From: Pirellulales bacterium
GTDB taxonomy: Bacteria; Planctomycetota; Planctomycetia; Pirellulales; PALSA-1355
NCBI GenBank assembly: GCA_022844125.1
Contig: JALHMI010000004.1
Location: 290,777 to 354,776 of the forward strand
Direction of reading: 5' to 3'
Length of the DNA stretch: 64,000 nucleotides
The translations under genes were made by a program, and so were the position numbers. Under the pieces are notes generated by a model. That model did no database searches, was not told the DNA's origin, and worked only from the letters and a program-made list of their open reading frames with translations. Of the stretch, positions 1-22,729 are shown piece by piece (within the stretch, counting starts at the first letter, position 1; each line of letters opens with the position of its first letter).

Positions 1-1
1 G

Positions 2-848: not shown

Positions 849-1070
849 ATGGTCCGTCGCCGATCACGACCGCTCTCACCTTCACGGAATGCCGAAGTGC
901 GTTCTGTGCCAGCCGGTGCGCCGGCCTGGGTGACAGCGGAGTTGATTGAAAGGACCATCCAGGTCTGGCAGCCGTACTACCCCGACCCATTGACCGACGA
1001 CGACGCCTTGGCGATCATTCAAAGCGTCGGTTGTCTGATCGATGTCTTGTCGAAGGGGTCGGAGTCATGA
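849..1070 (+). CDS. Small hypothetical protein coupled to the serine recombinase
   Basis: A 73-residue protein with a basic N-terminus (MVRRRSRP) and a compact acidic C-terminal half containing WQPYYPDPLTDDDA, which looks like a folded helical domain. Its TGA overlaps the ATG of the downstream recombinase (ATGA at 1067-1070), the usual sign of translational coupling. Family not identified. The coupling suggests an accessory factor for the recombinase, for example a directionality factor or regulator, but nothing in the sequence proves this. Confidence 0.6.
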   Translation: MVRRRSRPLSPSRNAEVRSVPAGAPAWVTAELIERTIQVWQPYYPDPLTDDDALAIIQSVGCLIDVLSKGSES

Positions 1071-2557
1071 AGCAGTACGCTGCCTTGGCCCGCGTAAGTA
1101 GCCGTGAGCAAGAGAGAGAGGGCTTCTCGCTCGAAGTTCAGGAGGAGGGCCTTCGCCGCTTCGCCACGCAGAACGGCGGGCAAATCGTCCGGCTCTTTCG
1201 GATCGCTGAGACCGCCAGCAAGGCGGACGAAAGAAAGACGTTTCGCGAACTCGTCGCGTACGCCAAGAAACACGCGGCCGAGCTAGATGGTCTGCTTTTC
1301 TACAAGGTCGACCGCGCCGCTAGAAACCTCTTCGACTACGTTGAATTGGAACGGCTTGAGTCTGAGTATCAGGTTCCGTTTATTTCAGTATCGCAGCCGA
1401 CAGACAGCAACCCTGCCGGCCGGATGATGCGGCGCACGCTCGCCAACATGGCGAGCTTCTACACCGAACAGCAATCCGTGGATGTCAAAGAGGGGCTCGC
1501 TCGTCGCGTCAGGGAAGGCTGGTTTATCGGCCTCGCACCCTACGGTTACCGGAACATCCGAAAGGACGGCAGGGGGATCATCGAGGTTGACCCTGCAACT
1601 TCGGCCAATGTCAAACGCTGCTTTCACCTCTACGCCTACGAAAATCTGACGCTTGACGGCGTCATCGCGAGGATGGCGGAAGAGGGGCGGACGTACCGTC
1701 CGTCGTCGCCCAAATTCCTCCGCGGCTCGCTGCACACGATCTTGCGCGATCGTGCCTACATCGGAGAGATCGAGCATCGCGGCCAATGGTACCCAGGTAA
1801 GCACGAGCCGATTATCGACCGAACGACCTGGAATCGGGTACAGACCCTCTTGGGAGGCCATATCTACCGCTCCCACGACATGACCTATTCAGGTGAGGCC
1901 ATTACGTGCGGCCATTGTGGCCATCCAATCACAGGAGAGCGAAAGTACAAGAAGACGAGCAAGGGGGAGAAGGCCTACACCTATTACCGCTGCACCTATT
2001 ACAACGCTCCGGGGCACCCTAGAACGCGAGTTACCGAGGCTGACATCGATGGCCAAGTGCTAGCGGTCTTCAAGCAGATGCGGATCGACGACGATGAAGT
2101 CCGCGATTGGTTCCAGATGGTCCTTCGTTCTCAGACTAGAGACGCGCAGCAGGAATCCGTCGCCCAACGCGCTGAGCTTCAGCGTCAGGAGACCCTTCTC
2201 GTCAACCAACAAGATCGCCTGCTCAATCTGCGGTTAAGCGAGGATATCGACCAGGAGACCTTCGCCAAGAAGCAGACCGAGCTACGCGACCGGCTAGCGT
2301 CGATCAAATTGCAGCTTGACGTTGTGGACCGTTCGCATGACGAGATGAGCGACTTGGCAGCCAAAGTTTTTGAACTTTCGCAAACTCTTTGCGATCAGTG
2401 GCTTAGCGCCGACTACGCAACAAAACGTCGGATCCTGGAAATCGTCTTTTTGAACTGCCGCCTCGACGGCGTAACTCTTGTCCCGCAAATAAGAAAGCCC
2501 TTCGACGTTCTCGCCGAAGGGCTCATTTCGAAAAATAGTCGGGGCGACATGATTTGA
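1067..2557 (+). CDS. Large serine recombinase
   Basis: A 496-residue site-specific recombinase. The N-terminal resolvase domain (about 1-150) contains RVSSREQ, with the nucleophilic serine, and later the YKVDRAARN stretch typical of the catalytic fold. A recombinase domain follows (about 160-270, RGSLHTILRDRAYIGE), then a zinc ribbon with CGHCGHP and a later Cys (about 280-330), and a coiled-coil C-terminal region (about 360-450). The start at 1067 is preferred over an upstream TTG because it gives the ATGA overlap with the preceding gene and begins directly at the resolvase fold. The last codons (SRGDMI and the TGA stop) lie inside the 42-bp sequence that is also the 3' half of the tRNA-Pro gene. 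Such enzymes move phages and integrative elements; this one probably belongs to an element extending left of the window. Confidence 0.93.
   Translation: MKQYAALARVSSREQEREGFSLEVQEEGLRRFATQNGGQIVRLFRIAETASKADERKTFRELVAYAKKHAAELDGLLFYKVDRAARNLFDYVELERLESEYQVPFISVSQPTDSNPAGRMMRRTLANMASFYTEQQSVDVKEGLARRVREGWFIGLAPYGYRNIRKDGRGIIEVDPATSANVKRCFHLYAYENLTLDGVIARMAEEGRTYRPSSPKFLRGSLHTILRDRAYIGEIEHRGQWYPGKHEPIIDRTTWNRVQTLLGGHIYRSHDMTYSGEAITCGHCGHPITGERKYKKTSKGEKAYTYYRCTYYNAPGHPRTRVTEADIDGQVLAVFKQMRIDDDEVRDWFQMVLRSQTRDAQQESVAQRAELQRQETLLVNQQDRLLNLRLSEDIDQETFAKKQTELRDRLASIKLQLDVVDRSHDEMSDLAAKVFELSQTLCDQWLSADYATKRRILEIVFLNCRLDGVTLVPQIRKPFDVLAEGLISKNSRGDMI
2496..2523 (-). terminator. Hairpin with T-rich tail (minus strand), inside the recombinase 3' end
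   Basis: A perfect 9-bp stem (2496-2504 with 2515-2523) has a 10-nt loop. Read on the minus strand it is followed by TTTCTTATTT, the layout of an intrinsic terminator for transcription arriving from the right. It is also coding sequence of the recombinase, so the function is uncertain. Confidence 0.35.
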
Positions 2558-2580
2558 ACATGCGACCTCTGCGTCCCGAA
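2539..2580. repeat. Left attachment-site repeat (copy of tRNA-Pro 3' half)
   Basis: These 42 bases are identical and in the same orientation to 22688-22729, which is the tRNA-Pro gene from its anticodon loop to the discriminator base. After three mismatches a further AGCGCT is shared. A fragment that starts in the anticodon loop and ends at the tRNA 3' end is the classic attachment core of tRNA-targeting tyrosine integrases. It overlaps the final codons and stop of the serine recombinase. Confidence 0.85.
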
Positions 2581-3025
2581 AATAGCGCTGCGTCTCACAG
2601 AAAAGCCCGTTTCTTCCGAATATTGTCGACATCTTAGCGACGCGGGCACGACTTGCAAGTATTTGCAAACTGAATCATGTTTTACCGAGCGCACGCAGTA
2701 ATGCGGCACTGCAAAGCGGTACCGGCGGCTCGTCAGCGAGCAGACGCGAATGGGGGGGAATTGAACGTCGAAGTTGATTATTGCCAGGGAGGCAATGGCT
2801 GCCTCGAGTAGTCCGCTCTGACTTCGTCAAATACAACTTCCTCCGCTATCCCAGCGACAGCTCGTCGCCTCCTGCAGCCCGACCTACTTCATCAAAGGCT
2901 CGGGGGACGCGAGGTCCAACTTCGACGATCGCGACTACCACCTGTTCCTGCAAGGTGGTGCGCAGATGCTCGATCCGCCTCGGGGTTTCAATCCGCCCGA
3001 GGCGGACGCACGCCTTACAAGTGCT
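2581..3025. other. Non-coding stretch between attachment repeat and kinase gene
   Basis: I see no convincing gene in this stretch. It contains the strong hairpin at 2975-3005 just downstream of the kinase stop. A short protein-like reading frame across 2820-3020 is closed by an upstream TGA and has no plausible start. Confidence 0.5.
2975..3005 (-). terminator. Strong hairpin downstream of kinase gene
   Basis: A perfect 10-bp GC-rich stem (2975-2984 with 2996-3005) has an 11-nt loop and lies 20 bases past the stop of the kinase gene on the minus strand. No T-run follows, so it may act as a Rho-independent-like or RNA-stabilising structure. Its position makes a transcript-end role likely. Confidence 0.55.
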
Positions 3026-6000
3026 CTACTCCGCCGGCGCAGCTTGACCGCGAATCGCCCGAATCGCGTTCTGGAAGAGTGTCAAGCCCGCGTCGTTCCA
3101 TTCGATCTCAACTTCTTGCGCTGGGTCGTTCGCTTCCGGACTGATCGCGAGCACGTCGGCAGGCCAATCCAACTCGAGTTCGGCCAGAGAGCGGCGGATC
3201 TCCGCCAGATTCCACACCCAGGGCTGCGAAGATTGATCCGTGGGAAAACAGACCAGCTTGCGATTGTCGCTAGTGAAAGCCATGATCGAAGGAAGGTCCG
3301 GCGCCGGGTGTACAAGCCGCGCCCAGTCTTGGCCTGACTCGGGATCGACGAACCGCAGCTCACCATTGGTCTGGCCGACGGCCAGCACCCGACTGTCCGG
3401 CGAGAACGCGATGCCCAGGCCATGCGGCGTGGTGCCCTGCGCGTGCAAATCTTGCGCAAGCGACCAATCGCTCGTTCGCCAGAGCTGCACGCCGCCCGGG
3501 GTCGAGGCCAGCCAGCGACCGTCGGGGCTGAATTCGACCATCCCCCATCGGCCCGTGGCAAGTGCTGCCAGTTGTGTCCCGGTGTTTACGTTCCAGACAG
3601 TCGCTCCGCCGGCCTCCCAGCTGGCGATCGCGGCCCACTTCGCATCGCGACTGAGCGCAGCCTTCCGCGGGTCGCCTGGAGGATTCAAGACCCGGCGATT
3701 GCGATCGCCTGTGAGCGACATTGCACACCAGCCGCCAACCGTTTCGAAGAGCAGGCTTTCGTTCGGGATGCAAGTTGCCAAGCTGTAGGGATCGGCAGTT
3801 TCGCTTAGGTGGACCGGCGGTCCGAACGAGACAACTTTCTTTCCCGCGCGGACCTGATCATGTCGAGGCCAGCGATAGATCATCGTGTCGACAGCCATGA
3901 TCAAATCACCGCGTCGATCGAATTGGACCAGGCAGTGGGCACCAGGCCGGAGGGAAACTCGTTCAAGCTTGTCGAGATCCCACACTTCGATGCCGCGCTC
4001 ACCGCTGACGGCAAGGAGTCGATTGTCGGGACTGATTGATGCGTAGGTACGCCCTCCCGTGGGCGGAAACCAGGCAATAGGCAGAAGCCGACACTCCGAA
4101 CCCGCGGCAAGTTCCCAATGTTCGATCCGCTTTTGTTCGTACTTGAACAACCCTAAGTTGCCGTCGGCGTCGAGATCCATCGCCAGGTTGTCAAAACCCT
4201 GAACTTCGAACTCCTTCTGTCCGGTCCCCACGTCCCACAGCATGAGTCGCGAATCCCACAGCCCGCAGGAAACCAGCCGCGATCCGTCCGCGTTGAACAG
4301 AATCTGCTGCGGAAACGAACGCTGCGGCAGCGTCAGGATCACTTTGCCCGTGCTCAGGTTCCAAATCCTGATCGGATTGCTGCTCGCCCAGATGGCGAGC
4401 ACCTCGCCGCCAGGATGCCACGCCATCCGCACGTTCACGAGATCACCGAGTGGCACCCTCGTCTCGATTGCGCCAGTCTTCCAGTCGATGATCAAGGCCT
4501 CGGTGCCGACATACACTGCCAGCCGATTGGATGGCTGGTGGAACCAGCATTGCGTACTCGCGTACTGCTCCACCAGCAGTCGGACCTGGTTGCCATTCTC
4601 CGCGTCAACCACCAGCAATCCGCCCGGATTGCGCTGCACCACGGCGTGCCGCCCATCCGGCGCGAAGCACAGCGAGCCAGTGCCCTCGTCGTGCCAGGCC
4701 AATTCCAGCGATTGACCCGTCGCCCGCCAGACGCGCGTGCCTTGCTCGCCTGTGAGACCAACAAGTCGACCATCCGGCGAAATGCACGCCTGCGACTGTG
4801 CCATTTCGTGGGGCACGCGGGCCAGAATCTGCCCGTCATCGGTATCGCCCACTACTAGCGTGGCGTCCTGAACGTTCAGCGCAAATCTCTTGGCGACCAA
4901 AGCCACGGCGGCGTGCCGCACTAGTTCGGCGCTACCCCACACCTGGCGCACGCGCCGCAAATCGGGGAGCGAGACGCTGCGGATCGCGGCAGTGCGCAGT
5001 TGCAAGATTCGTTCGTCGCTCGATCCGATCGTCGGCAACAGCTTTCGTGCTCGATCGATCGTCTCAAGCGCCGCGTATCTCTGGCCCAGCTGCCGGCTCG
5101 CATTGCGGGCCGCGATCTCTGCGAGGTACGCATCCCACAGCCGCAGCTGGGCCGCTTCGTTTGCGGCACGTTCGGCAAGCTCGGCCTGCGTCGTGATCTC
5201 CAGTTGCCGGCTCAATTGGCCGGAATACCAGGTGGAGACGATCGACACCGTGACGAGCAGCGCCGCCACCGATCCGATGGCGGCCGCCAACGCGGGATTT
5301 CGCCGGCACCAGCGCCAGCCGCGCTCCAAACTCGTGGCAGGTCGAGCCTCGATCGGCCGATCGGCCAGGAATCGTTGCAAATCCTCCGCCAGTGCCAGAG
5401 CCGAGGGATATCGCCGCGCGGGCGCCCGCTCCAGGCACTTCGAACAGATCGTCGCCACGTCGCGAGGCAACCCCGGCGCGACCCGATAGATCGACGCCGG
5501 CTCAGCCAGAAGCACCTGCTGCAGCGTTTCGATGGCGGTTTCGCCGCGATACGGAGGTCGGCCGCAGAGCAGTTCATAAAGGATCGCGCCCAGCGCATAG
5601 ACATCGGTCGCCGGACCAATCTCGCTTTGCCTCCCCAACGCCTGTTCAGGCGACATGTAACTTGGCGTTCCCAGCAGTGCTCCCGTCTGCGTGTGCCCGC
5701 CCGGCTGATCGCGAAAGATGCGGGCCAGCCCAAAGTCAGCAATCTTCACCTCCGGCGGATCGCCGTCGGCGCTGACCAGCAGGTTGTTCGGCTTCAAGTC
5801 GCGATGCACCACGCCGTGCTCGTGGGCAAAGTGTACGGCGCGAGCGACTTGCTCCACGAGCTGAGCGGCCCGGCGGACGTTCCATGGGTTGCCCTCCAAG
5901 CGGTCGGAAAGCGTGCCGCCTTCGACCAGTTCGAGTGCCAGATACGGACAGCCATCGTCCTCGCCGTAGTCATACACCTGGACGATGTGCGGATGGTGCA

Positions 6001-6622
6001 GCGAGGCGACCACCTCGGCTTCCGCCCGAAAACGCGACAACAGCTCATCGTTCGCCAGGTCCGCATGCCGCACCATCTTGAGCGCGACCAGCCGATTCAA
6101 TCCTGTCTGCTGAGCCCGGAACACCACGCCCATTCCGCCGCGGCCGATCTCCTCGAGAATCTCGTACTCCGCCCGCAGGTTGCGCTCGGTTTCGCCACCG
6201 GTCGGCTGGGCGGCCATCGACTCGTCAAACGCCTGATGCAATTGAATCTGGTCGGCAAGCACCGTGGCATACTGGGGGAAGCGAGCGGCGTACTCCGCGA
6301 CCGTCGGACCTTCGCCCAGTTTTTCGCGGGCCAGGTACTCCGCGTAGATAATGTCGACCGCCGCCTCTTCGTTGGCGCCAAGTTGCGGATAACGGGCAAG
6401 ATACTCTTCGGCCGCCGGGCGCTGTCCGCATCGCCACCGCTCGCGCAGGTCGACACGCGTCACGGCGGCCAGTTCCGTGCCGGAAACCTCCTGATGCTGC
6501 GCAAGAAATGCTTCCAGCGTCTGCGGCTGCTGCTGCCAGAGCAGCGAGTAGTCGCGGGCCAGAGCCCGGCTGCGGCCGTCGCCGGGCGTAGCAGATGATT
6601 GGCTTGTTCCGAGCGCGGCCAT
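3026..6622 (-). CDS. Membrane Ser/Thr protein kinase with C-terminal WD40 propeller
   Basis: A 1198-residue transmembrane Hanks-type kinase. An N-terminal helical region (1-150) precedes the kinase domain (about 153-420), which has the Gly loop GRGGMG (160-165), the VALK lysine (182), HRDLKPNN with catalytic Asp 275, DFG (296-298) and the SPEQ activation-segment end. A single membrane span lies near 445-465. The remainder, from about 560, is a chain of WD40-type blades (FSPDGRW, SPDNRLL, WDVGTGQ). The ATG at 6622 is chosen over an upstream TTG. It lies 91 bp downstream of the ECF sigma gene on the same strand, a pairing common in Planctomycetota where the kinase is thought to sense signals and act on the sigma factor. 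All key catalytic residues are present, so it should be active. Confidence 0.95.
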   Translation of the reverse strand: MAALGTSQSSATPGDGRSRALARDYSLLWQQQPQTLEAFLAQHQEVSGTELAAVTRVDLRERWRCGQRPAAEEYLARYPQLGANEEAAVDIIYAEYLAREKLGEGPTVAEYAARFPQYATVLADQIQLHQAFDESMAAQPTGGETERNLRAEYEILEEIGRGGMGVVFRAQQTGLNRLVALKMVRHADLANDELLSRFRAEAEVVASLHHPHIVQVYDYGEDDGCPYLALELVEGGTLSDRLEGNPWNVRRAAQLVEQVARAVHFAHEHGVVHRDLKPNNLLVSADGDPPEVKIADFGLARIFRDQPGGHTQTGALLGTPSYMSPEQALGRQSEIGPATDVYALGAILYELLCGRPPYRGETAIETLQQVLLAEPASIYRVAPGLPRDVATICSKCLERAPARRYPSALALAEDLQRFLADRPIEARPATSLERGWRWCRRNPALAAAIGSVAALLVTVSIVSTWYSGQLSRQLEITTQAELAERAANEAAQLRLWDAYLAEIAARNASRQLGQRYAALETIDRARKLLPTIGSSDERILQLRTAAIRSVSLPDLRRVRQVWGSAELVRHAAVALVAKRFALNVQDATLVVGDTDDGQILARVPHEMAQSQACISPDGRLVGLTGEQGTRVWRATGQSLELAWHDEGTGSLCFAPDGRHAVVQRNPGGLLVVDAENGNQVRLLVEQYASTQCWFHQPSNRLAVYVGTEALIIDWKTGAIETRVPLGDLVNVRMAWHPGGEVLAIWASSNPIRIWNLSTGKVILTLPQRSFPQQILFNADGSRLVSCGLWDSRLMLWDVGTGQKEFEVQGFDNLAMDLDADGNLGLFKYEQKRIEHWELAAGSECRLLPIAWFPPTGGRTYASISPDNRLLAVSGERGIEVWDLDKLERVSLRPGAHCLVQFDRRGDLIMAVDTMIYRWPRHDQVRAGKKVVSFGPPVHLSETADPYSLATCIPNESLLFETVGGWCAMSLTGDRNRRVLNPPGDPRKAALSRDAKWAAIASWEAGGATVWNVNTGTQLAALATGRWGMVEFSPDGRWLASTPGGVQLWRTSDWSLAQDLHAQGTTPHGLGIAFSPDSRVLAVGQTNGELRFVDPESGQDWARLVHPAPDLPSIMAFTSDNRKLVCFPTDQSSQPWVWNLAEIRRSLAELELDWPADVLAISPEANDPAQEVEIEWNDAGLTLFQNAIRAIRGQAAPAE

Positions 6623-6713
6623 AAGGGATTGCTGCGACTTAGCGAGAATCAATGGGATGTCACTGCGACAGCCCCATCAGACTATCGCCGCCGATTGTCA
6701 GATCGCACATTGA

Positions 6714-7298
6714 TCACTCTTCGAGGCCCAATTGTCGGCTGGCCCGTTCGATGCCCCGCGAAAGCTGCATTCGCCTCGCCTGCGCGCTCCCCCCAAGCTC
6801 CGCGGCAATGCGTTCCCAGCCCAGCCCTTCGCTCCGCAGGTCGGCAATCTGCCGCTCGTCGGCACTCAAAGCTTCACGCATCCGTTCGAGCAATTCCTGC
6901 CGCGAAAGCATTTCGCTGGCCGACGGCTGGGGATCGGCCACCTGCTCGAGTGCCACGTGAGAAACAACCGCCACGCGGCGCACGTCCCGCCGCAAGCGAC
7001 GCTCCTGCCGCGCACGCGAGGCCAATTTATTTCGAGCCATCACCACGAGCAGCCGCACCAGCTGATCCGCTCGCTCCAGGTCGTATTCGCCGATTGCCGC
7101 CCGCACGAAGAAGCTGGCCAGCACCGATTGCGAGACGTCCATCGAATCGAAGGCGCGATTGAGCCGCTCATCTTCGATCCGCATCCGGACTTCGCGGCGA
7201 ATCAGCGGCTCGTAGCGCCGCACTAATTCTTCCGCCGCCGAATCATCGCCGGATCGTACTTGGCGCACGAGCAGTGAGAAGTCGCTGTCCTGGTTCAT
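6714..7298 (-). CDS. ECF-family RNA polymerase sigma factor
   Basis: A 194-residue sigma-70 family protein. Region 2 lies at about 25-95 (LVRRYEPLIRREVRMRI, then SMDVSQSVLASFF), and region 4 at about 140-190 has the helix-turn-helix LGWERIAAELGGSAQARRMQLSRGI. The start at MNQDSDFS is chosen because it matches the usual ECF length; the frame extends further upstream with unlikely sequence. It leads the two-gene unit with the WD40 kinase and diverges from the giant surface-protein gene across 176 bp, which makes that gene and its PEP-CTERM partner the first candidates for its regulon. No anti-sigma gene is adjacent; the kinase probably takes that role. Confidence 0.93.
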   Translation of the reverse strand: MNQDSDFSLLVRQVRSGDDSAAEELVRRYEPLIRREVRMRIEDERLNRAFDSMDVSQSVLASFFVRAAIGEYDLERADQLVRLLVVMARNKLASRARQERRLRRDVRRVAVVSHVALEQVADPQPSASEMLSRQELLERMREALSADERQIADLRSEGLGWERIAAELGGSAQARRMQLSRGIERASRQLGLEE

Positions 7299-7474
7299 GC
7301 AAAGTTTTTTGCTCAGAAGCGTGTGCGATCTCAAACGGTCCGGCGATATAGCGGGTGGAGAGTACCGCCGTCCCCGGGCGGCACGGTGCCATTCTAGCAT
7401 CCCGCCGGAGCTTCCGTTCCCCCGGCACGTGCAGATTTCACATAGCCTATCCATCTATCGCGGACAAAACGACT
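7299..7474. promoter_or_regulatory. Divergent promoter region between ECF sigma and giant surface protein
   Basis: This 176-bp spacer separates two genes that diverge, so promoters for both must lie here or within the gene ends. It is less GC-rich near the sigma-factor start (AAAGTTTTTTG at 7300-7311). I cannot name -35/-10 elements with confidence. Confidence 0.5.
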
Positions 7475-13400: not shown

Positions 13401-16400
13401 ACGAGATTAAGATCCATGCTGCCTATGGCCCTGTGTTCGTGACCGGGCGCGGCTCGCGCAATCTGGTGACGATCATCCCGGCTCAATCCTCACGCGGCCG
13501 GCTCGACGACACGATTCGCGCCGCTGTCACCGTTACGGACGCGAGCCTGAGAATCATCCCCGACGACTACGAGACTCCGGTCGGTGGTCCGCTGCTTGAC
13601 CTCGTGTTCACTCCAAATTCACTGACCGGCCTGACGCCGGGGCCAATCTTCTTCGAACAGCTGATCGAGTACGCAACCGACTTCAGCGGCGTACACCCGG
13701 GCCTGCACATTGGGCTTCCTAAGCAAGGGGCCGCTTCGCTGACAATTGTCGACACGCCCACCGGCGTTAGAACAGCGCTCAACACCTTCAACAGCGCCGC
13801 GATCGGCCCGGTCGAAGTCCGGGCGACTACCGGACCTCTCCTACTAGGTACGGCAACGATTCCCAACTCAGGAAATATACGTGATGAGTTCCGTGCTCAG
13901 TCGGTTGTATTCGGTCATGAAGGAACGCTGCAGAACATCCGCGGCAACGTGACTTTGGGTGGCGCGGCGCTTGGTGGCATCAAGTATTACGCTCCCGGCG
14001 GCACGACTTTCGACAATCATCTTGATGCTCCGCGCGCGGTGCTCCTCGGCGGTTCTGGCGGCTACTCGATCTGGACGGGTCTCGCACCGGCCTCGATCGA
14101 TTTCCAAAACTTCCTCGCCACGGAAGTAACCATTCTCGGCAGCGATGGCAGTCACTACGAGGTCAGCTCCACCGCGGATAAGATGCGACTGATGGCCGGC
14201 GTCGACACGACCGTGGAAGTGACCAAGCCTCCATTCAGCGGCCTCAACATGCCCTACGGCCTGACGGTCTATGGGGCCGAGCAAGTCGTAATCAAACCTG
14301 TCACGGGCAGCCCGTTCGCGGTCGCTAACAAGAGCTTCACCGTCTTGCCGCATCCTGACCGCCCGACGGAAACCACTGAGCTGATCGTCGATTTTCGGTC
14401 GACCGCGCAAGATATTTGGTTAAATGATGCCGGCAGCGGCAGCGGCATCGGCGAATTGTGGGGCGGTAATCTCGCCTTCAAATACTCCTACGTGAAATTC
14501 CAAGGCAGCAAGACGCACTTCACATTGCTGGCATTCAACCCGCCGAATTCTGGCGCGCAGTCCCACAGCTATCCGATTCGCGTCCTTGATACCGTCGCAT
14601 TGTCGACGACCATCAATCCGGGCACTCGCCAGCTATTCGTGCTGGGTACTACCGCGCCGCTCGTGATCGAACACGACGGCCCGCAGGCCATGGTCATCGG
14701 CGACGCCGGCAACATGCAGAACTTGCATGGCTCGATTACGGTCAACGTTCACGATTCGTCGTCGGCCCCGGTCACGGTCGAACTCAATAGCAGCGCCGAC
14801 GCAACGCCGCGAAACATTACCCTGGGCCACCCCGCAGCGAGCCAGTGGAACATTACCGATCTGGCTCCAGTACCCATCGCGATCAACGGCGCACTTGCCC
14901 GGCCGTCGCTCCGCGGAGGCGTGGGCGCCAACACGCTCACCGGTCCCAACGAAGCCACAATCTGGGACATCACCTCCGCGAGCGGCGGCCTTATTGAGGG
15001 CCTCGTCGCGTTCTCCGGCATGCACAGCCTGATCGGCGGTTCGGCAGACGACGACTTCTACTTCCGCGGAGTCGGCCAGCTCGCCGGCAACTTGAACGGT
15101 GGCGACGGCTTCGACACCGTCCACTACATGGGCATCCTCGACGGTTCCGAAACCATCGACCTTCCAGCAGGCATCCTCCCGCGCGTGGGCGGCCAGGCAG
15201 TCAGCATCGAAGCGGTCGACGTCGTGGCGCCGCTCGCGCTACAAAACCCCGGCTATCAGATCGGCCGCGTCGGTCTTCCGATCACGCCCTTGCAGGTTGT
15301 CGCCACCGGCGGCGATCCCAACAAAACCTACTCAGCCACCGGACTTCCAACGGGCCTCTCGATCGATCCTGCGACGGGCATCATCTCGGGCACCGTCAGT
15401 TCATCGATCGTCATCGGCACGAACTTCAACGTCAACGTCTCGGTCAACGACGGCACCACAACGAAGAATGCCACGTTCACCTGGAACGTGCAGGACGTGT
15501 ACTCCGTGGTGAATCCGGGCAACCAGCTCACGCCCGAAGGCGTTCCGATCAGCCTGCAGATTCAGGTCGACAATCCGACGAATCGACAGCTCCGGTTTGA
15601 TGCCAATGGGTTGCCGTCGTACCTATCGATCAATTCGCAGACCGGCGTCATCAGCGGCTCGATCTTTTTCTACACCCAGCAGTACGGGCCGAACATCCAG
15701 TTCAACGCCAACGTTTTCGTCTACGACGACGCGGCTCAGAAGGTAAAGACCGTCAGCTTTACCTGGCGATTGCAGCCAGGCTTCCAACTCAGGTCTGGCG
15801 CCTTCTACGACTACGCCGGCGAAACAATCGACTTCCCGGTTGTCACGAACCCGTACAACCACACGATTACGGTCAGCGCGACGGGACTTCCGCCCGGGCT
15901 CTCGATGGATTCCAGCGGGCGAATTACCGGCACGATCGACGACTTCGCCTTCCGCGACGAGGCGTACATCGTCGAGATGACCGCTTTCGATCAAAACATC
16001 AATTACACGGCCACACAAACGCTTGCTTGGTATGTCGCGCCGGCGATGAGCCTGTACGAGCAATCGCCCGTGGTCAGTTACGCCGGCAACAGCGTTGAGT
16101 ATTGGATCTCCTTCCAGAACGCGCTCGGCCACGAGTTCACCCTTGACGTCACAAACCTGCCGCCGGGTCTCACGGCCGATGAACTTGGAGCCATCACCGG
16201 CACCGTCGACGCCAGCGCAGCCACGGGCTCACCGTACCTCGTGACCGTGACACTTACGGACTCGATGGTCGGCCGCACGATGCAGGAAACCTTCGAGTGG
16301 ACCGTTCTGCCGCCGATCTCGATCGACGACCTCAACGAAAACACTCCCCCAGGTACGCCCATCCTGGTCGACTTGTTCGACCCGATCGCCGAGGTCAATC

Positions 16401-18226
16401 CGCAGCAGATGGCGGCGGTCCACTATCCGTCGCAACCGGAAGGCACGGCATCGCTGTATATCCTTGCCGACCAACTCTACGTGATTGAGAATGGCCAGCG
16501 CACCGCCGTGGCCAGCATCGACCCAGACAACCCGGACATCGACTGGGTCAGCTTCATGCTGCCTGTGCCTGACCGAGGACTGTTCTTCCTCGACAACTAC
16601 AATCGGCTCTGGTTTGCCGACCAGGCCGGCGCACGCGTCATTTACGAAGACCCGCTCTACCTGAATCTCGGCCCCGGCCCTGTCACCCTGGGCGATTCCC
16701 TGTTCCTCGGATCGTACGACGCCTTTACGTTCCGGTCGCAGGTAACGCAGATTGACTTCAGCGGGGCAGAGCCGCAAGTCAGCCACCTCGATACCGCCCA
16801 CATCGATGGCCTCGAAGGCATCCGTGGTTTCGCGGGCGGCATCGTTTTCAACGGCTATGAAACCGGCAACTCGTATCGCTCGATCTACTGGTATGACCCG
16901 GCGACCGGCAACACCACCACGCTTGGCGGCATCGCAGTCGGCTTCAACGACGTCACGACCGTGCCGGCCACCGATGGCACGCAGAACCTGTTCACGATCG
17001 CCCGGCCGGACTACGACCTTCCTTTCGAACTCCGAGTCATCAACAGCGCCGCGCTCTCCGGACCGAATCCCGAGCTCACAGTTCTAGCGACGTTCCCATC
17101 TGACACCGACGTTGGCAGCAGTAACTGGCCGCAGCAGCCGCTTCACGTCACCGGCCACAAGCTGAGCTTCAGCACGAGGACCTATGACGGCGAGACGGGC
17201 GAGTACCGCTTCCAGTTCTGGACTTCCGACGGCACCGAAGCCGGCACCGGTGGTGTGAGCAGCTTCATGATCGGCCAGGTGGAGATCACCGAACAAATCG
17301 CCTTCGCCGGTAGCGTGTACTTCATCTATCGTCTTCCCGTTGGAGACGTCACCGAAACAACCGTTGCCGCTCAATTGTGGCAGTTCGATCCGGCGAGCGG
17401 GGAACTCACGTTGTTGCATGACTTCCTCGGCCCGCTGCATGCCGATCGCATTCCCACCGGTCTTGTCGTCGCAGCCGATATCCTGTACTTCACGGCTTCG
17501 AACGAACTGCCCAACCAGTACGGCTTGTGGCGTCTCAAGTCTGGCGACATTTCGCCGTCGCTCGTCCCCTCGAAAATCGGCAATGCCTACGCGAACCCCG
17601 ACCCCGCCAGTGGCATTCTGGTCGGCGACCGCTATTACTTCATAGCCGATAGCATCGCACTGCCCAACCAGTACGGAAACTACTCGCGACAGCTTTGGTC
17701 CGTCGGTCCACCCGTCGTCGTCAGCGTGCCGGGCGATCTGACAGGCGATGGTGTCGTCAGCGGGCCGGACATCGACGCCCTGTGGGGCCTGATCCAGGCG
17801 AACAACCCGGCCGCGGATCTCAACAGTGATGGCCTCGCGAATCAACGCGACATGGACCACCTGATTCGCGAGATCCTGGACACCCAGTACGGCGACAGCA
17901 ACCTCGATGGGTTCGTCGATGCCGCCGACCTGGCTATTACACGCCAGCGCATCGGCAGCCAGTACGGCGGCCCCAACTGGCTCGGTGCGGACTTCAACGG
18001 TGACGGCCTCGTCGACGCCGTGGACCTCGCCACCGTCCGGCAGCACATGGGCTTCGTCGGGGCCAATGCCGTTCCGGTTGGCACTCAGCCGTTGACGGAA
18101 GAGATGATCGGAAACGACATGCGACTGGTCATCGACGAAAACCTCGATCACGACTTTGAAGACCTGGTTTCGCTGCTGGCTTCGGGCACGGCCCGTCGTC
18201 GCTGGCGGCTTACGCGTATGGGATGA
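7475..18226 (+). CDS. Giant secreted/surface protein with dockerin repeats (3583 aa)
   Basis: The start at 7475 places a basic N-terminus ahead of ELEDRRLLA (41-49), the planctomycete sorting motif seen in very large exported proteins. A long beta-rich body follows, with an EF-hand-like loop near 655 (DPNNDGKLRFSE) and an RTX-like Gly/Asn-rich patch near 850-890 (GGPGNDTI, GGAGENTI). About four or five putative Ig domains of the He_PIG type lie at roughly 2590-2945 (TGLPTGLSIDPATGIISG and relatives). A propeller-like section with SDGTEAGT lies at about 2970-3400. At 3419-3529 there are four calcium-loop motifs (DLTGDGVVSGPD, DLNSDGLANQRD, DSNLDGFVDAAD, DFNGDGLVDAVD), which equal two dockerin-type modules. 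The 10.7-kb frame is uninterrupted. Its stop overlaps the start of the PEP-CTERM gene. The likely role is adhesion or cell-surface scaffolding; no enzymatic domain is recognisable. Confidence 0.92.
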   Translation: MSRTCNDFRQRATAKTRRSRPAQKSRLSLGSLDWHACRHEELEDRRLLAVVPFISIGQQLRGDLASVENQLTVVLNNFDTGASSTIPFVGERLGDISKAFSSFSTQIQAALTSLGSPTDPSPAILQTALFDALGPSGLNLLGDRNGNGVDSGDVVVTAAGGVLNDDFSVQMLLSGSVAAPSVPLKFNTGLPGLPLSIRSDGELAATVNFTYELAFSYDAQLQSVDLDDTKKLAGADHQLALAASIGLQNFSATAIMGFVQGDLTALAGQPNGLSLAIELNNISTSPQVVITGSADANLQLSGSFAGTENDFPGIDTDLHLHWAIDTEDPSAAAPDVWFDNVYLDLGDFISNVVKPVFENIHYFTQPLAPVLEVLGYPLPGLTDLSRLVGGGDVTLLDLGGVAATVTGFGPLYDLVEKVLEVIDAINQFEVGDSVRLKLGGFDLDSFDLRDVAAAGNPLNTSLRNLTELSPSNLIGIAQSLASKIDELPIGSEEKEFLKGFAEQLNNGFSVRFPILEDPASAVFPMLLGRDGDLFTLDAEVHQSAKGSTATGFSVFGIGVDFGGEVEVDTKFKFAYDTFGIRNLISDIAAGNTSAASIAENIVDGFYLASDSFFELAGTIFAAAGAGIGIFSARVGGFVSTGDSGDEPVSITIVDPNNDGKLRFSEFSEDSFEFSGELAAELGVEVRVGVEFLGEFIGVKKRFNMAREILIDFNLDPNDPTDPSDAVLASQPDANGNINLYIGALALLREEVDNEDGNEQLRIQHVETTPAGETIDITIRQTNLIGREFDVTQRIAGVKKITGIDGIGNLIIDVLPGVTSDVHFEGGTGHAELMYEGAGIAYLKAGALDSALTGGLGNNTLIGGPGNDTISLGHAGNTVVGGAGENTIIVNAPTTQGGSVVGGDTANNMLVVSAGQYTSSIDLVVDSPGYMRLAYDETQGTFPNLILSNFNRVSVTAQDRSTDVHLGDLSPAGIETVIINVPTLGQGGRKIELDTRYQLGTSDISLQPFDHTYDTPDGGTVINRAMLLSNFTTGVETYILGVAADDITTITQHGGIATLGPLGNDSGTIVFDTRQRSAGADEAVFMHVPSDADGNFVEMGDSGSSDFKIDPQLYPTIVFKGLATIDRIEMDLDAPTDEDGTNMVTIDASALQGLLDLDLLGTAGFVPVTNAVTISELALGGVIDVHGGATSATLNYGTGKLFDIQGDVRAHNLELTVDDHDALIPSLIVLGVAAAQRRTSPDDGLRPGLTYDGLRGKFTVHAGAGDRIGLEQTAPGISQMNFTNPSNTLDSLYVEAASSKLSINGNWSLYFGREMLADGTVVRTGKLAPIGVQVDVVFTGLTPREIVFDAIHDPIGAQHNLGGDRIVEYTRFVDSALGLHLKAGGTKLADDLFLYLTGAEANINVTQMAGIEITVDSNDRFAGVNPTAPNTVSLEVKFGTVTMTPIGEYDSRIVGGNPVNILATIPQDTTNVGIASTINAGPLKDNPAVVFAFGTDFFFADAYYLAHVTDGYWPLVGEVEFRDTITNLSAYYEANFPDLTNKALPGYGINVPVMSGGFGYSQIWLKPNSNYNPPLPSSAAANGLLYPVDFDPWNSTMNLNASQLRGTFNVNVHDPDYAGANRIGNFFDQIMQYRYDVSTVSPYYQNIENNYPRFAIKFGSTDVNLTHVGPETSANINGSAPLVQNQDTPLMLKGIYGTVTNAQTNVNLGVGDLSNIDGAVSFNRVHLTIDGRNGTTPNILTMNGTTLSGWSTGAPGVTQTASFGALYGTLTMIGGVADSFSILQTPVGPTKISVQGGVAAGPMAMSMAVAADREPVAESMADEDVTPGVYLVGKQLNQIFEVNGNFEFTIGRKLNGDGSVEVASGIGGFTNFVNNSNDTHVIIYNFVGEGQGKLVYDVASYITFGPNLTVRADAAYPGKGELVFDFAPSSTRSKLVYSPNTDLTILGPQRATPTIENLVAATIRYIVNPVPTTSYVDEIKIHAAYGPVFVTGRGSRNLVTIIPAQSSRGRLDDTIRAAVTVTDASLRIIPDDYETPVGGPLLDLVFTPNSLTGLTPGPIFFEQLIEYATDFSGVHPGLHIGLPKQGAASLTIVDTPTGVRTALNTFNSAAIGPVEVRATTGPLLLGTATIPNSGNIRDEFRAQSVVFGHEGTLQNIRGNVTLGGAALGGIKYYAPGGTTFDNHLDAPRAVLLGGSGGYSIWTGLAPASIDFQNFLATEVTILGSDGSHYEVSSTADKMRLMAGVDTTVEVTKPPFSGLNMPYGLTVYGAEQVVIKPVTGSPFAVANKSFTVLPHPDRPTETTELIVDFRSTAQDIWLNDAGSGSGIGELWGGNLAFKYSYVKFQGSKTHFTLLAFNPPNSGAQSHSYPIRVLDTVALSTTINPGTRQLFVLGTTAPLVIEHDGPQAMVIGDAGNMQNLHGSITVNVHDSSSAPVTVELNSSADATPRNITLGHPAASQWNITDLAPVPIAINGALARPSLRGGVGANTLTGPNEATIWDITSASGGLIEGLVAFSGMHSLIGGSADDDFYFRGVGQLAGNLNGGDGFDTVHYMGILDGSETIDLPAGILPRVGGQAVSIEAVDVVAPLALQNPGYQIGRVGLPITPLQVVATGGDPNKTYSATGLPTGLSIDPATGIISGTVSSSIVIGTNFNVNVSVNDGTTTKNATFTWNVQDVYSVVNPGNQLTPEGVPISLQIQVDNPTNRQLRFDANGLPSYLSINSQTGVISGSIFFYTQQYGPNIQFNANVFVYDDAAQKVKTVSFTWRLQPGFQLRSGAFYDYAGETIDFPVVTNPYNHTITVSATGLPPGLSMDSSGRITGTIDDFAFRDEAYIVEMTAFDQNINYTATQTLAWYVAPAMSLYEQSPVVSYAGNSVEYWISFQNALGHEFTLDVTNLPPGLTADELGAITGTVDASAATGSPYLVTVTLTDSMVGRTMQETFEWTVLPPISIDDLNENTPPGTPILVDLFDPIAEVNPQQMAAVHYPSQPEGTASLYILADQLYVIENGQRTAVASIDPDNPDIDWVSFMLPVPDRGLFFLDNYNRLWFADQAGARVIYEDPLYLNLGPGPVTLGDSLFLGSYDAFTFRSQVTQIDFSGAEPQVSHLDTAHIDGLEGIRGFAGGIVFNGYETGNSYRSIYWYDPATGNTTTLGGIAVGFNDVTTVPATDGTQNLFTIARPDYDLPFELRVINSAALSGPNPELTVLATFPSDTDVGSSNWPQQPLHVTGHKLSFSTRTYDGETGEYRFQFWTSDGTEAGTGGVSSFMIGQVEITEQIAFAGSVYFIYRLPVGDVTETTVAAQLWQFDPASGELTLLHDFLGPLHADRIPTGLVVAADILYFTASNELPNQYGLWRLKSGDISPSLVPSKIGNAYANPDPASGILVGDRYYFIADSIALPNQYGNYSRQLWSVGPPVVVSVPGDLTGDGVVSGPDIDALWGLIQANNPAADLNSDGLANQRDMDHLIREILDTQYGDSNLDGFVDAADLAITRQRIGSQYGGPNWLGADFNGDGLVDAVDLATVRQHMGFVGANAVPVGTQPLTEEMIGNDMRLVIDENLDHDFEDLVSLLASGTARRRWRLTRMG

Positions 18227-19062
18227 AATCGAACTGCAGGGTTTGCCTAATGCATCGAATGATCGCTCGAAAGCCTTCTATGCGCGCTATTCTCGCGTTT
18301 GCCCTGGTGGCAACCGCCCAGGTGGCTACAACCGCGCGAGCAGCCACTATCAGCATCACCCCGTTGTATGTGCAGAGCTTTACTGAAGGGCTGATCCCCT
18401 TGGGAACCTTGCCCAACGATGGCGCGGCCACCGCCGTCGGCGGCCTGCTGCACTACGAGTTCCGCATGTTCGTTGACGAACTCATGGCCGGCGAGGACTT
18501 CTGGGTCGCGATCTTCAACGTCAACCTGGGGCCCGGTCTCGAAGCCGTCACCTCCTGGATGGACCCCGGCACTGCGCAAGCGAACGACCTCTACGCGTTG
18601 TCGCCCTCACTGGCCACTTATGATTCGAACGGTGACTCGCTGGGCGGCGTGAAATCGCACTGGCAATTCGGCAACGGAGACTTCGGCCTCGATACCACGG
18701 ACCTCAAGAGCATCATTGTCGAGGCTGCGTCGGACGAAGCCGCCAACCGGCAGTACTGCGAACTCGTGCGCCCCGCCGCGGGCAACCCCGACGCGCTCGG
18801 TTCGCCTACGCTCATCGGTGCGATCCTGGTCCGGCGTACCGAACGACTTGCAAGCAGCATCAGCGTTACGCCAATTGCCGGCAGTCCTTGGGGCATCTAT
18901 CGGGACAATGAGCAAGGGCTTGGCGAACCGGTCGCACAGCCGGGCGGCGCTGCCTTCTCCGGCGAATCGGCTATGCTGGCCGTTCCCGAACCGAGTACAC
19001 TGGCGCTGGCAGCGGTTGGTCTGCTGACGCTAGTATTCGCTCGGCGTCATCGCCGCGGTTAA
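18223..19062 (+). CDS. PEP-CTERM sorting-domain protein
   Basis: A 279-residue exported protein. A hydrophobic signal peptide lies at about 20-40 (LAFALVATAQVA, with an ARA cleavage region), though the true start may be one of the ATGs within the first 20 codons. The C-terminus is a textbook PEP-CTERM tail: VPEPSTLA, a hydrophobic helix, then RRHRRG. Exosortase enzymes recognise such tails and anchor the protein to the envelope; no exosortase gene is in this window. The first ATG overlaps the giant gene's stop (ATGA, 18223-18226), implying coupled translation, so the two products probably work at the same place. The stop codon directly abuts the truncated helicase fragment on the other strand. 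Confidence 0.88.
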   Translation: MKSNCRVCLMHRMIARKPSMRAILAFALVATAQVATTARAATISITPLYVQSFTEGLIPLGTLPNDGAATAVGGLLHYEFRMFVDELMAGEDFWVAIFNVNLGPGLEAVTSWMDPGTAQANDLYALSPSLATYDSNGDSLGGVKSHWQFGNGDFGLDTTDLKSIIVEAASDEAANRQYCELVRPAAGNPDALGSPTLIGAILVRRTERLASSISVTPIAGSPWGIYRDNEQGLGEPVAQPGGAAFSGESAMLAVPEPSTLALAAVGLLTLVFARRHRRG

Positions 19063-19323
19063 CCGAATTCGCTGGGCCTCAGAGACCAATCGGAAGTGTC
19101 CCCCGTCACCGTCGAAACTCCACGGTCTGCCGTGCTCGACGATTTCGAGTCGGGGCTCGTCATGGCGAAACAGGAGCTCGTTTCCCAAAGCTCCCGTGGG
19201 CGATTTGTGGGTAAGTTCGAGCGCCTCGGAACCAAACATCTGCACGCTCACCACGGTCACTAGTGAGTCCGGCAGGATGCCGCGCACGGCCGGATTGGGC
19301 TTGAGATCTTCCAGCTTAATCAT
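19030..19323 (-). pseudogene. N-terminal remnant of a SNF2-type helicase (DISARM DrmD-like)
   Basis: The first roughly 85 residues match the N-terminus of a family of long SNF2-like helicases that includes DrmD of DISARM phage defence: MIKLEDLKPNPAVRG, ILPDSLVTVVSV, RPWSFDGDG, FRLVSEAQRIRL. In intact members this runs on into a helicase core of many hundreds of residues. Here similarity stops at RIRL, and nine unrelated codons then lead to a stop inside the PEP-CTERM gene. The break falls within a few bases of the PEP-CTERM stop codon (19060-19062), which marks a recombination or deletion junction. Family assignment is from memory of the conserved N-terminus. Confidence 0.6.
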
Positions 19324-20014
19324 GCGGCTTGCTCGACGACCGCGGTGAAAGAATTGAAACGCCACGCAAAGAGATGTGGCGACGATTCTAACCCCTCTGC
19401 GTGCGGGGTGCCAGCCTTGCCATGCGAAAGTGGCGGCCGCGGCGAATTGGCAGTAGCGACTGTGCTAAGTGGGGAACCCGCACGGGCCCAACGGCATGCG
19501 CGTGTTTGGTGAGCGCATCGGTGGTCCGGAGCGCATTTCCCCCCAGAACCCCCCAGCATGTTCGTCGATTGGGCGCGTGAATTACAGTAGCAGAACAGTC
19601 CAGCCAAATGAAGTAGGTTCGCAGCTCGCTAATCGCCACCCAGGATGCCTCGAGCGCGTCAGGCGTACCTGCGGCATATGACCACGATGGTCCGTGCTGC
19701 CTTTGTACTTGGGAACCATTTATCCTGGGCCCGAGCGCAGTCCGACTTCGGCAATTCTGCCTAAGTCGGCCCGCAGCGCCGTTTACCCTTGGGGTAGCCG
19801 TTGCTTAGCCCGTCGAGCGTTTCTTTATCCTCGCGCGCTCGATAAACTTCACGAGGCCCGGATGTATTAGCTGGTGATCGAAGTCGGCAACGCACCACCG
19901 CGAACTCCGGGAACACACCGTCTTTCTTGCAGCACGGCGATCTACGATGCGCCCGCCGATGGTTAATCGGCCGTGAGCCCGGCAGCATCCTAGGGCTTTC
20001 AGATTTTTAGGCGA
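19324..20014. other. Intergenic stretch inside the island
   Basis: About 690 bp in which I find no gene, RNA or clear repeat. Short frames here have no start signal or recognisable sequence. It may hold the upstream remains of the truncated helicase operon. Confidence 0.4.
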
Positions 20015-20329
20015 CTAGTATCCCGCCTCGCGAAGTTCACGCTCGGCCTGCTCGCTCGCTTTCTGGCTGCGGACTGGAGTGCGTGCTAGGGTGCAAAGCT
20101 CACGGCCTCCAGGCGGGACGCTCAGACGTTCAAAGAAGCGATGGAGGGCCTCGAGCGACGTACAGCGGGTGCCGCCGACCTGGATGGATTCAAGCTTGAC
20201 TCCCCGGCAGCCAGACACAGTCCAGCGGTAGATACAAGAAACGTGAGGACGCTTGCCGCCACGACGGGCGGGCAGCGACTTGGCAGCGTCGGCCAGGGAG
20301 ACAATGTTTTCGCTGATGGAATCAATCAT
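20015..20329 (-). CDS. DUF1580 family protein (excisionase-like)
   Basis: A 104-residue protein beginning MIDSISENIVSLADAAKSLP, followed by RRGGKRPHVSCIYRWT, GCRGVKLESI and GGTRCTSLEAL, the hallmark pattern of DUF1580, a Planctomycetota-restricted family. The layout (an 'LADAAK...SCIYRW' helix-turn-helix followed by a short wing) is that of MerR/excisionase-type DNA-binding proteins. A purine-rich GAGGAGTAGG lies just before the ATG. It sits close to the integrase gene, as DUF1580 genes often do, and could serve as excisionase or regulator of the island. Confidence 0.8.
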   Translation of the reverse strand: MIDSISENIVSLADAAKSLPARRGGKRPHVSCIYRWTVSGCRGVKLESIQVGGTRCTSLEALHRFFERLSVPPGGRELCTLARTPVRSQKASEQAERELREAGY

Positions 20330-20431
20330 CCTACTCCTCGCACGTGTAAGCCTCGGCGGGCAAAACTATGCGAATCGTAGTAGCGGCAACGATGGGAGAA
20401 CCACGGACAAAATTTGGCGTAGTTATGTCAG

Positions 20432-21319
20432 CTACGCCGAAAACAGAGTCCGGTGGAGGCGGCAGCCTTTCCCTGGAACACTTTCGATCAGTTCGCGAAC
20501 TGTGTCTGGCAAGGACGCGCGGACCCGGTCGGCACGCATTTCCATCGAACTTCCAGAGACCCAATCTCCCTTCGCTTTAACGAGGGCTTGTACCAGTAAC
20601 GCACCATTCGGCGTAACCTGATGCGTTACCCCTCGGATCGTGACTTGTGGGGGATGGAGACATACGGCAATACATGGCGCCTCAAGGGGTATTTCGTCAT
20701 CATCCGAAGTTTGCGACGTAAGTGTGCTGATCATGCCGTCAAGCATCCGGCATGAATCTGCGAACACGTCTTTCAAATGCGACGTCTCGGCCTCGAAGCG
20801 TATTGTTGCGGGGTCTAATTGCTGCTCGACGCGGATCGCCTCTCGATCGAAAGGGATTGGCGTACTCTCAAACTCGAATTTCAGCGTCGAAAACTTCCCA
20901 AATCGACGGTGTAAAAGGCCGAGCCAAGCCTTCTCGCTCACGACAGGCCAGTGGGCTTGTGCGAGCGACTGATACTGACCATGGAGGTGCAAAGTCGCTA
21001 CCGCCGAGTACGCTAGTTCACCGAAACGGGAGACGGCCAACAGAAGATCCCAGCCCGCTTCCCAGTTTCGCGACAAGTTCACAATCGCGGGGCGAAGAAA
21101 CTGAAAGTCAACTGCGGGATCGCCGAGGCCCGATTGGTAACCTTCTTCCCTGGCTGTCGCGAAGCAATTCACTCGCTGCCATTTGCGGATGCTCCAGCAA
21201 TGGGAATTGTCTGGAAGCTCGACCAGCTGTGACTCGAGGCTAGGAAACTCGAGTCTCGCGTCCCGGAACCGCTCCAATAGCCTTCGAAGATCGCCGAGCA
21301 CCCAGTCAATTCTGCTCAC
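20432..21319 (-). CDS. Hypothetical protein with a possible C-terminal winged-helix domain
   Basis: A 295-residue protein starting with GTG. The N-terminal two thirds are mostly helical with no recognised motif. The C-terminal 70 residues (VTIRGVTHQVTPNGALLVQAL, then a short helix and ESVPGKGCRL) resemble the wing-helix pattern of a small DNA-binding domain. It lies 102 bp upstream of the DUF1580 gene and 33 bp downstream of the integrase on the same strand, so the three probably form the island's own core. Function unknown. Confidence 0.65.
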   Translation of the reverse strand: MSRIDWVLGDLRRLLERFRDARLEFPSLESQLVELPDNSHCWSIRKWQRVNCFATAREEGYQSGLGDPAVDFQFLRPAIVNLSRNWEAGWDLLLAVSRFGELAYSAVATLHLHGQYQSLAQAHWPVVSEKAWLGLLHRRFGKFSTLKFEFESTPIPFDREAIRVEQQLDPATIRFEAETSHLKDVFADSCRMLDGMISTLTSQTSDDDEIPLEAPCIAVCLHPPQVTIRGVTHQVTPNGALLVQALVKAKGDWVSGSSMEMRADRVRASLPDTVRELIESVPGKGCRLHRTLFSA

Positions 21320-21352
21320 TGTGAAAACCTTTCCGCGAAAACGACAGAGGTT

Positions 21353-22565
21353 TTAACCAATCTTCTTCATAACCTGCACCGCGAGCGCATAGTCGCGTTC
21401 TGCATAGATCTGTGAGACGTCTGCGCTCGCATGACCGAGGGCGACCTGCGCCGCCTCCAATCCAAACTGTTGTCGGATCATCGTTGCTGCGGAGTGACGT
21501 AACCGATTGGGGTGCCATTGGTGGGCGCGACGCCACTCCTTTCGTTCCTCGACCGACAGATCGTCAGGCGCAGGAAAGGCGAGTGCACAGGCCCCTATGG
21601 ACGGCACGTCGATAGCTGTCAGCAGTATAAAGATTGCCCGGAGCACGACGGCGTTTTCCGCTCGCGCGGCGGTACCCATGGCGGGGGGGCAGTGAATTTT
21701 GTCGCCGTGCAAAGTTGCGTCTGATTTCACTCTCCGCCGGGACAAAGCAATAGCTGCTCTTTTCCCGGAGAAGATACGGTCGAAGAACGTCTTGCGCTCG
21801 AGGGCCGATGAAGATGAATCGCTCACGCCCGTGGTGCTCGGTCTTGTGAGACTCTGGTCGGTAACGCCAGATCTCGCCGGACGTATTGACGTCACATGGA
21901 CGAAGAATACAAACTTCGCCCGGTCGACAGCCTGTCAGTCGCTGGAATCGAACCATGTCAGCCACAACAGTCGGCATTCGGGCCAGGGTCGAATCCACAG
22001 TCGCTTCATCAACAGGACGCACTGGGGGCATTTCCCGGGCCTCTGATCGCCCCTTTCGCAAGCCAGGAACGGCGGCCAATGCCTGGTATACGGACGGCGC
22101 GATTAGTTCCTCAGCAACGCCCCATTTGAAGATCCGACGCAGGCGGTCAATGTTGTCGTTGATGTAGCGGCGACTATGGCCATCGGTGATCATCCGTCGC
22201 TGAAGGGACCGAAGTGCCAAGGGTCCAAAGTCGGCAGCGGGCTTAGGGCCATAGCCTTCTCTCAAGTAGCGGATCACCACGCGGATACCGTGGATGGCGC
22301 CGGTCAGCTGACCGTCTTTGACATAGTACCCCTCGGCGAACTTGCGGTACTGGTTTGCAAGTTGGGCGATCGTCAGACCGAAACGGGGAGAGGGCAGCGA
22401 TCGCCCGTTTGCCAGCCACTCGCCAATCAGGCGATCGTATTCAGCTTTGCTCGCCTTCGACTTCCAGGGACCGAGATAGTAGTCGACTTGATCGAGCGTC
22501 ACCACGGCCTGGTCAGAGGCCTTGTGATGGCGATACTTGGGCGCGACGTTCAGAAGTTTGGGCAT
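21353..22565 (-). pseudogene. Tyrosine integrase, frameshifted
   Basis: Two frames together encode one phage-type integrase of about 403 residues starting MPKLLNVAPKYRHH. The first frame covers the SAM-like arm and core-binding domains and the first catalytic Arg (TGCRPGEV). It then runs off after YTADSYRRAVHR into nine wrong residues and a stop at 21564. The second frame resumes at ACALAFPAPDD and carries HPNRLRHSAAT, LGHASADV and the nucleophile in QIYAERD. The shift is explained by one extra base in the GGGG run at about 21592-21595. It lies next to the tRNA-Pro 3' end, as expected for the enzyme that inserted the island. A sequencing error or programmed frameshifting cannot be excluded. 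Confidence 0.82.
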
Positions 22566-22687
22566 TGTGCGAGGCTCCGATTGAAAAGCCAAAACGGTAA
22601 ATACCGTTTTGGATCGGCTTCAACGGGCCGCGCTGCCGAACGCCGGCAGGTAGTCTAAGTGAAGACTTCAGCGAGATTTAGGGAAAA

Positions 22688-22729
22688 TCGGGGCGACATG
22701 ATTTGAACATGCGACCTCTGCGTCCCGAA
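22688..22729. repeat. Right attachment-site repeat within tRNA-Pro
   Basis: Identical over 42 bp to 2539-2580. This copy is part of the intact tRNA gene, so the tRNA keeps its function after integration, as is typical for islands inserted at a tRNA 3' end. Confidence 0.85.

Follow-up and report, generated by a model that had tools for sequence, protein, structure and literature searches.

The window analysed here, a stretch of 64,000 nucleotides from a Pirellulales genome, contains two copies of the 3' half of a tRNA gene ∼20 kb apart, which raises the question of how the DNA between them arrived and which enzyme placed it. The answer proposed with high confidence is that a 20,149-bp island was placed at tRNA-Pro(CGG) by the tyrosine integrase adjacent to it, and that the same tRNA 3' end is also the target of a neighbouring element with a large serine recombinase (LSR). 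The features of the locus are listed with the evidence for each in parentheses.

1-817, plus strand: C-terminal part of a TrwC-type relaxase/helicase of 1,779 aa that begins upstream of the window (Pfam TrwC, 1.1e-41; AAA_30, 1e-48)
1031-2557, plus strand: LSR of the neighbouring element (Pfam Resolvase, Recombinase and Zn_ribbon)
2478-2526, minus strand: hairpin and T-rich run in the 3' coding end of the LSR, a predicted terminator (fold; covariation)
2539-2580, minus strand: distal repeat, 42 bp of the tRNA-Pro 3' half, within which the serine recombinase gene ends (repeat search)
3026-6652, minus strand: serine/threonine protein kinase with WD40 propeller (Pfam PF00069)
6714-7454, minus strand: ECF sigma factor (Pfam PF07638)
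7355-18226, plus strand: giant surface-type protein of 3,623 aa (four He_PIG and two dockerin stretches by Pfam; homologues)
18223-19062, plus strand: PEP-CTERM protein (Pfam PF07589)
20015-20329, minus strand: 104-aa protein, possible excisionase (homologues near related integrases)
20432-21319, minus strand: 295-aa protein without a family assignment, adjoining the integrase (open reading frame)
21353-22592, minus strand: tyrosine integrase gene, frameshifted near 21591 (N-terminal part 21564-22592; C-terminal part 21353-21895, with the Phage_integrase C-terminal motif)
22687-22763, minus strand: intact tRNA-Pro(CGG), the island-proximal attachment site, with the repeat copy at 22688-22729 and a 5' flank in common with two relatives, G001 and G002 (ARAGORN)

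The tRNA-Pro gene, its repeat and the uninterrupted site

Recognition of an island integrated at a tRNA gene relies on a direct repeat of the 3' part of the tRNA at both ends, and such a repeat is found here. The only tRNA that ARAGORN detects in the window is tRNA-Pro(CGG) on the minus strand. Positions 2539-2580 are identical to 22688-22729 at 42/42 bp, the match retains 94% identity when widened to 51 bp, and the starts of the two copies lie 20,149 bp apart. Within the tRNA, the repeat spans from the anticodon loop to the discriminator base. An earlier note on this DNA had claimed perfect 42-bp repeats, one of them inside an intact tRNA-Pro(CGG), with exactly these limits, and both claims are confirmed. 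A chance match is excluded because these are the only two copies in the whole 6.44-Mb genome when up to three mismatches are allowed; the reversed repeat, which serves as a control, has no match in the genome at the same threshold. The 20,149-bp segment between the repeats is read as a genomic island.

The earlier note proposed a search of relatives for an uninterrupted tRNA-Pro, which is present in G001 and G002, two genomes of the same family as the window genome. In both, tRNA-Pro(CGG) and ∼45 bp of its 5' flank match the window, the island is absent, and the tRNA 3' end is joined directly to the sequence that trails the distal repeat in the window; this 3' flank is unlike what adjoins the window's intact tRNA. 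The junctions without the island indicate that an uninterrupted state exists and that the window has 20,149 extra bp. Together with the membership of the integrase in a tRNA-targeting family, they support the reading of the segment as an island that the note had put forward. The distal flank used in this comparison is mobile-element sequence, and gene order on the tRNA 5' side is not conserved between the window and G001/G002, where orthology is supported only by the ∼45-bp flank. Because the neighbour is mobile, the argument rests on the tRNA-LSR junction and the short 5' flank rather than on chromosomal genes. A 907-aa flank protein tried as a synteny anchor has orthologues, none of them near a tRNA-Pro. 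The DUF1697 gene on the tRNA 5' side (22889-23344) aligns with no more than the first 48 positions of a 137-position profile and is apparently truncated or frameshifted.

The tyrosine integrase expected at the tRNA 3' end is present, with its start 95 bp from that end, but the gene is split over the two frames listed above and is not a single intact one. Full-length relatives align to it in both frames with a break near 21591, and the Pfam Phage_integrase match falls on the C-terminal part. Intact versions of its kin (44-59% identity) exist in other genomes of the order, and relatives stand at the 3' side of a tRNA in eight of the 11 loci checked (Arg, Ala, Lys, Leu, Pro, Met and, twice, Val). 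The frameshift may be a sequencing error of the draft genome or real decay; since the integrase is frameshifted, the island may be immobile and its excision is doubtful. The integrase DNA has no match among plasmids. For the adjoining 295-aa protein, no Pfam or NCBIfam match is found. The 104-aa protein may act as an excisionase, as suggested by homologues that tblastn places beside integrases in three loci (L030, L035 and L021).

A portable four-gene cargo

The cargo consists of an ECF sigma factor gene and a kinase gene divergent to the genes for the giant protein and the PEP-CTERM protein. The giant open reading frame is 10.9 kb in length, with a translation start probably further downstream than the listed GTG, and its stop is overlapped by 4 bp by the start of the PEP-CTERM gene. 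The layout suggests that the ECF/kinase pair regulates the surface proteins. The same four genes are found in the same order in G021, a genome of a different family, with identities of 78% for the ECF factor, 56% over 1189 aa for the kinase, 47% over 3670 aa for the giant protein and 57% over 168 aa for the PEP-CTERM protein; no tRNA is detected on the G021 contig that carries them. The best matches within the window genome's own family reach 61% for the ECF factor and 36% for the giant protein, a patchy distribution. The recurrence of this gene order outside the family, with no tRNA close by, indicates that the cargo is a portable module, which the island has captured. The earlier note had described an ECF/kinase pair and a surface-protein gene as unusual cargo for an island. 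These genes are present, but their company is less odd than stated because the transferable module is seen elsewhere without a tRNA.

A serine recombinase family at tRNA 3' ends

The LSR gene lies just outside the left repeat, and its stop codon is inside the distal copy at 2539-2580: its last codons, S-RGDMI-stop, extend into the antisense of the tRNA 3' end. The protein combines three domains in ∼500 aa, as is characteristic of the LSR class, with Pfam E-values of 5.1e-22 for Resolvase, 2e-12 for Recombinase and 3.1e-8 for the zinc ribbon. The nearest named NCBIfam models are CcrA/B/C and XisF; scores far below the curated cut-offs, such as 72.4 bits against 900 for CcrB, place the LSR outside the CcrA, CcrB, CcrC and XisF families. 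Upstream of it, a scan of selected open reading frames in the 40 kb to the left reveals, in addition to the relaxase/helicase, a NikA-like protein, a Dam methylase, a ParA ATPase and a strawberry-notch helicase. Judged by these genes, the left neighbour appears to be a mobilizable element. No second tRNA 3'-end fragment that could mark its other end (attR) is found on its contig, the second end does not turn up in the genome, and no attP is found. In G002, an LSR 79% identical to the window's likewise reads into an intact tRNA-Pro, and G001 keeps a 40-aa C-terminal LSR remnant at its tRNA-Pro.

Relatives of the LSR were collected from 297 genomes of the order, of which 42 are positive, and from GTDB contigs (79 loci). 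All 92 distinct 3' ends of the LSR family meet tRNA 3'-end sequence, 65 of them at an intact tRNA and 27 at a fragment. The intact, in-register cases comprise 56 tRNA-Pro, seven tRNA-Ser and two tRNA-Ala genes, and the tRNA-Pro genes include all three isoacceptors (25 CGG, 18 GGG and 13 TGG). In 22 of the fragments, antisense tRNA sequence is kept from the 3' end to the T-loop, and in five just the start of the acceptor stem. A sister clade at ∼34% identity obeys the same rule, while the 3' ends of three sequences at ∼28% identity are not in register with a tRNA. Site-specific integration by the family is indicated by the 92/92 ends and by an occupied and empty pair: G053, without the LSR, and G077, which has it (and an estimated contamination of 8%), share an identical stretch of 263 bp that ends with the tRNA 3' end, and past that point their sequences diverge. 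In the LSR tree, the Ser-targeting copies form one clade (support 99) and the Ala-targeting copies another (100), the three Pro isoacceptors are intermixed, and the window copy stands beside that of G023, from another family. Such a pattern suggests that the enzyme is mobile and recognises what the tRNA-Pro genes have in common in their 3' part.

The distribution of the family includes several further cases. A cultured planctomycete, strain TBK1r, carries a member, and intact relatives are present in G002 and G031. In phage and plasmid records, no relative at ≥60% identity is found, the best among the matches listed being ∼28%; one viral contig carries a 73% relative with its end in a tRNA-Pro-like fragment. 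Paired LSR-family genes, 36-60% identical to the window copy, are present in four genomes (G088:C1:1701038-1704084, G008:C1:555372-558401, G192:C274:898279-901311 and G129:C471), and in each pair just one of the two ends in a tRNA. Members also occur in bins named Cyanobacteria, Acidobacteria, Alphaproteobacteria or Bacteroidales (L120, L121, L141, L090 and L105), which reflects either transfer outside Planctomycetota or binning errors.

The position of strand exchange can be narrowed by comparing elements with near-identical LSR tails. Among 77 such pairs, mismatch is 0 at all positions between -3 and +3 relative to the tRNA 3' terminus, of which 0 to +3 are invariant and therefore cannot discriminate the crossover site, and it rises to 0.18 at acceptor position +4 and 0.44 at +5. 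As the tRNA part tracks the host and the LSR part tracks the element, exchange would take place at the tRNA 3' terminus. A crossover in the T-loop, considered on account of fragments that break after TTTGAAC, was dropped because near-identical tails diverge from acceptor +4. A 21-bp piece of the tRNA-Pro 3' end is found separately at G000:C15:190768-190899 in the window's own genome (L171:10769-10900) and also in G023:C198, G023:C75, G021:C21 and G053:C546. It is followed by ∼100 bp conserved across genera (75-86%), the translation of which is a small protein (SNCTSCSCADCE... in G000). The conserved DNA behind the fragments in G000:C15, G023, G021 and G053, taken initially for the other attachment arm of the LSR element, is partly the reading frame of a conserved small protein; the 21-bp piece and the ∼100 bp together are possibly such an arm.

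The 3' coding end of the LSR folds, on the tRNA strand, into a hairpin of -23.2 kcal/mol (z -5.0). Its 12 pairs are 98.3% standard over 78 distinct sequences, and four pairs have changes on both sides; when the pairing is shifted by 1-3 positions, the share is 59% or less. The covariation is supportive rather than proof because codon constraint acts on the same bases. The hairpin is predicted to terminate the tRNA transcript when it lies directly downstream of the tRNA. C-terminal remnants or flanks of LSR genes persist beside tRNA-Pro in L017:19749-19868 (G001), L207 (G031:C15) and L200/L201 (G006), and their hairpin part may be kept as a tRNA terminator. On balance, we favour a widespread planctomycete LSR family whose specialised target is the 3' terminus of tRNA genes; the original target would be tRNA-Pro, with single switches to Ser and Ala. 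Such an enzyme would leave the host tRNA untouched, use the antisense tRNA as its own C-terminus and stop, and provide an in-frame replacement for the tRNA terminator, so that selection would act on a single stretch in three roles, those of integrase code, attachment arm and tRNA terminator.

Stacked elements, their order and known systems

A break in the anticodon loop, the mark expected of tyrosine islands, is seen in the tRNA piece beside the LSR at 13 of the 92 ends, one of them that of the window. On the single-contig chromosome of G261, tRNA-Pro(TGG), a tyrosine integrase of the same family (44%), ∼61 kb, a 3'-half fragment and an LSR are found together. The window's genome has a second island on another contig (G000:C5:317976-374441; L172 and L173), where a 343-aa, tyrosine-integrase-like open reading frame lies at the 3' end of tRNA-Pro(GGG) and a 3'-half fragment lies 56 kb away.

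Placement by the tyrosine integrase has to be weighed against the idea that the genes between 2.6 and 20 kb are native, the integrase end alone being foreign and the repeat a relic of another event. The ECF/kinase/giant module does occur in G001, of the same family, ∼17 kb from its tRNA-Pro, and the G+C content is not unusual. The G001 module is, however, inverted, only ∼33-39% identical and situated beyond unrelated genes; the closest relative of the window's module belongs to another family (G021), and G002 is without the giant gene and has its tRNA directly adjoined by an LSR. A native origin is, in our judgement, improbable. That the LSR rather than the tyrosine integrase placed the 20-kb segment is hardly credible: the end of the LSR gene overlaps the distal repeat, but the break in LSR-related fragments comes immediately past the T-loop or before that, and in the window repeat and 12 similar ones it lies instead in the anticodon loop; moreover, the tRNA end is occupied by a tyrosine integrase whose family targets tRNAs.

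The order of the two arrivals is a separate matter. The distal fragment retains the tRNA 3' end against which the LSR genes of this family lie, and the LSR element could have come second, by integration into the displaced tRNA 3' half of a pre-existing island. The window LSR may indeed be an independent arrival, as its identity is higher with the G023 copy (86%) than with the copy in G002 (79%), a genome of the same family. Integration into a fragment would depart from the usual place of the family, an intact tRNA in 65/92 ends, and both the G002 LSR and the G001 remnant stand at an uninterrupted tRNA-Pro, which leaves this order conceivable but doubtful.

In the preferred account, the tyrosine integrase beside tRNA-Pro(CGG) would have inserted the 20,149-bp segment there by recombination in the anticodon-loop part of the tRNA gene. 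The island would have supplied an identical 3' half and so kept the tRNA whole, with the original 3' half displaced to 2539-2580. The integrase being frameshifted now, the island would probably be fixed unless helped in trans. Its position is between the tRNA and the neighbouring mobile element. The LSR of that element belongs to a family that appears to integrate at the tRNA 3' terminus, mostly of Pro; the LSR gene takes its stop codon from the antisense tRNA, and its 3' coding end would bring a terminator hairpin for the tRNA. On this account, the tRNA-Pro 3' end is a target common to two unrelated recombinases. This shared target would explain the stacked islands at tRNA-Pro in these bacteria, and a mobile element could protect the host tRNA through a terminator within its own gene. 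Tens of independent insertions of the family, at tRNA ends that can be identified, offer natural attB sites for testing and make the family a source of candidate integration tools for Planctomycetota.

The island is of an ordinary kind, and what is new is an LSR family that targets tRNAs, overlaps them in antisense and has a predicted terminator within its gene. As in other tyrosine-integrase islands at tRNA genes, the integrase lies at the tRNA 3' end, the 3' half is directly repeated and the intact tRNA is at the integrase end; in contrast to them, the integrase in the window is frameshifted and the island lies between the tRNA and an LSR element on the same tRNA end. Elements with different integrases have been described in tandem at a single tRNA, as in IME_Sag2603_tRNAlys with a decayed ICE (PMC5704250). 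There, too, two elements with unrelated integration enzymes are stacked at one tRNA 3' end, but both enzymes are tyrosine integrases, whereas the window combines one tyrosine and one serine recombinase. The literature searched yielded no paper on a planctomycete tRNA-Pro serine integrase, and the TIGER/Islander databases may list such elements without comment. A review of mycobacteriophages states that phages with serine integrases make no use of tRNA genes (PMC9262239), and serine recombinases at tRNAs are described as rare, the examples being Mycobacterium AICEs at tRNA-Leu and the Ralstonia phage phiRSM1 at tRNA-Ser (PMC3218068). The likeness of the window LSR to these systems is the association of a serine recombinase with a tRNA gene. 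In contrast to them, the window LSR family belongs to Planctomycetota and targets mainly tRNA-Pro, in all three isoacceptors; it reads antisense into the tRNA for its stop and has a conserved terminator-like hairpin.
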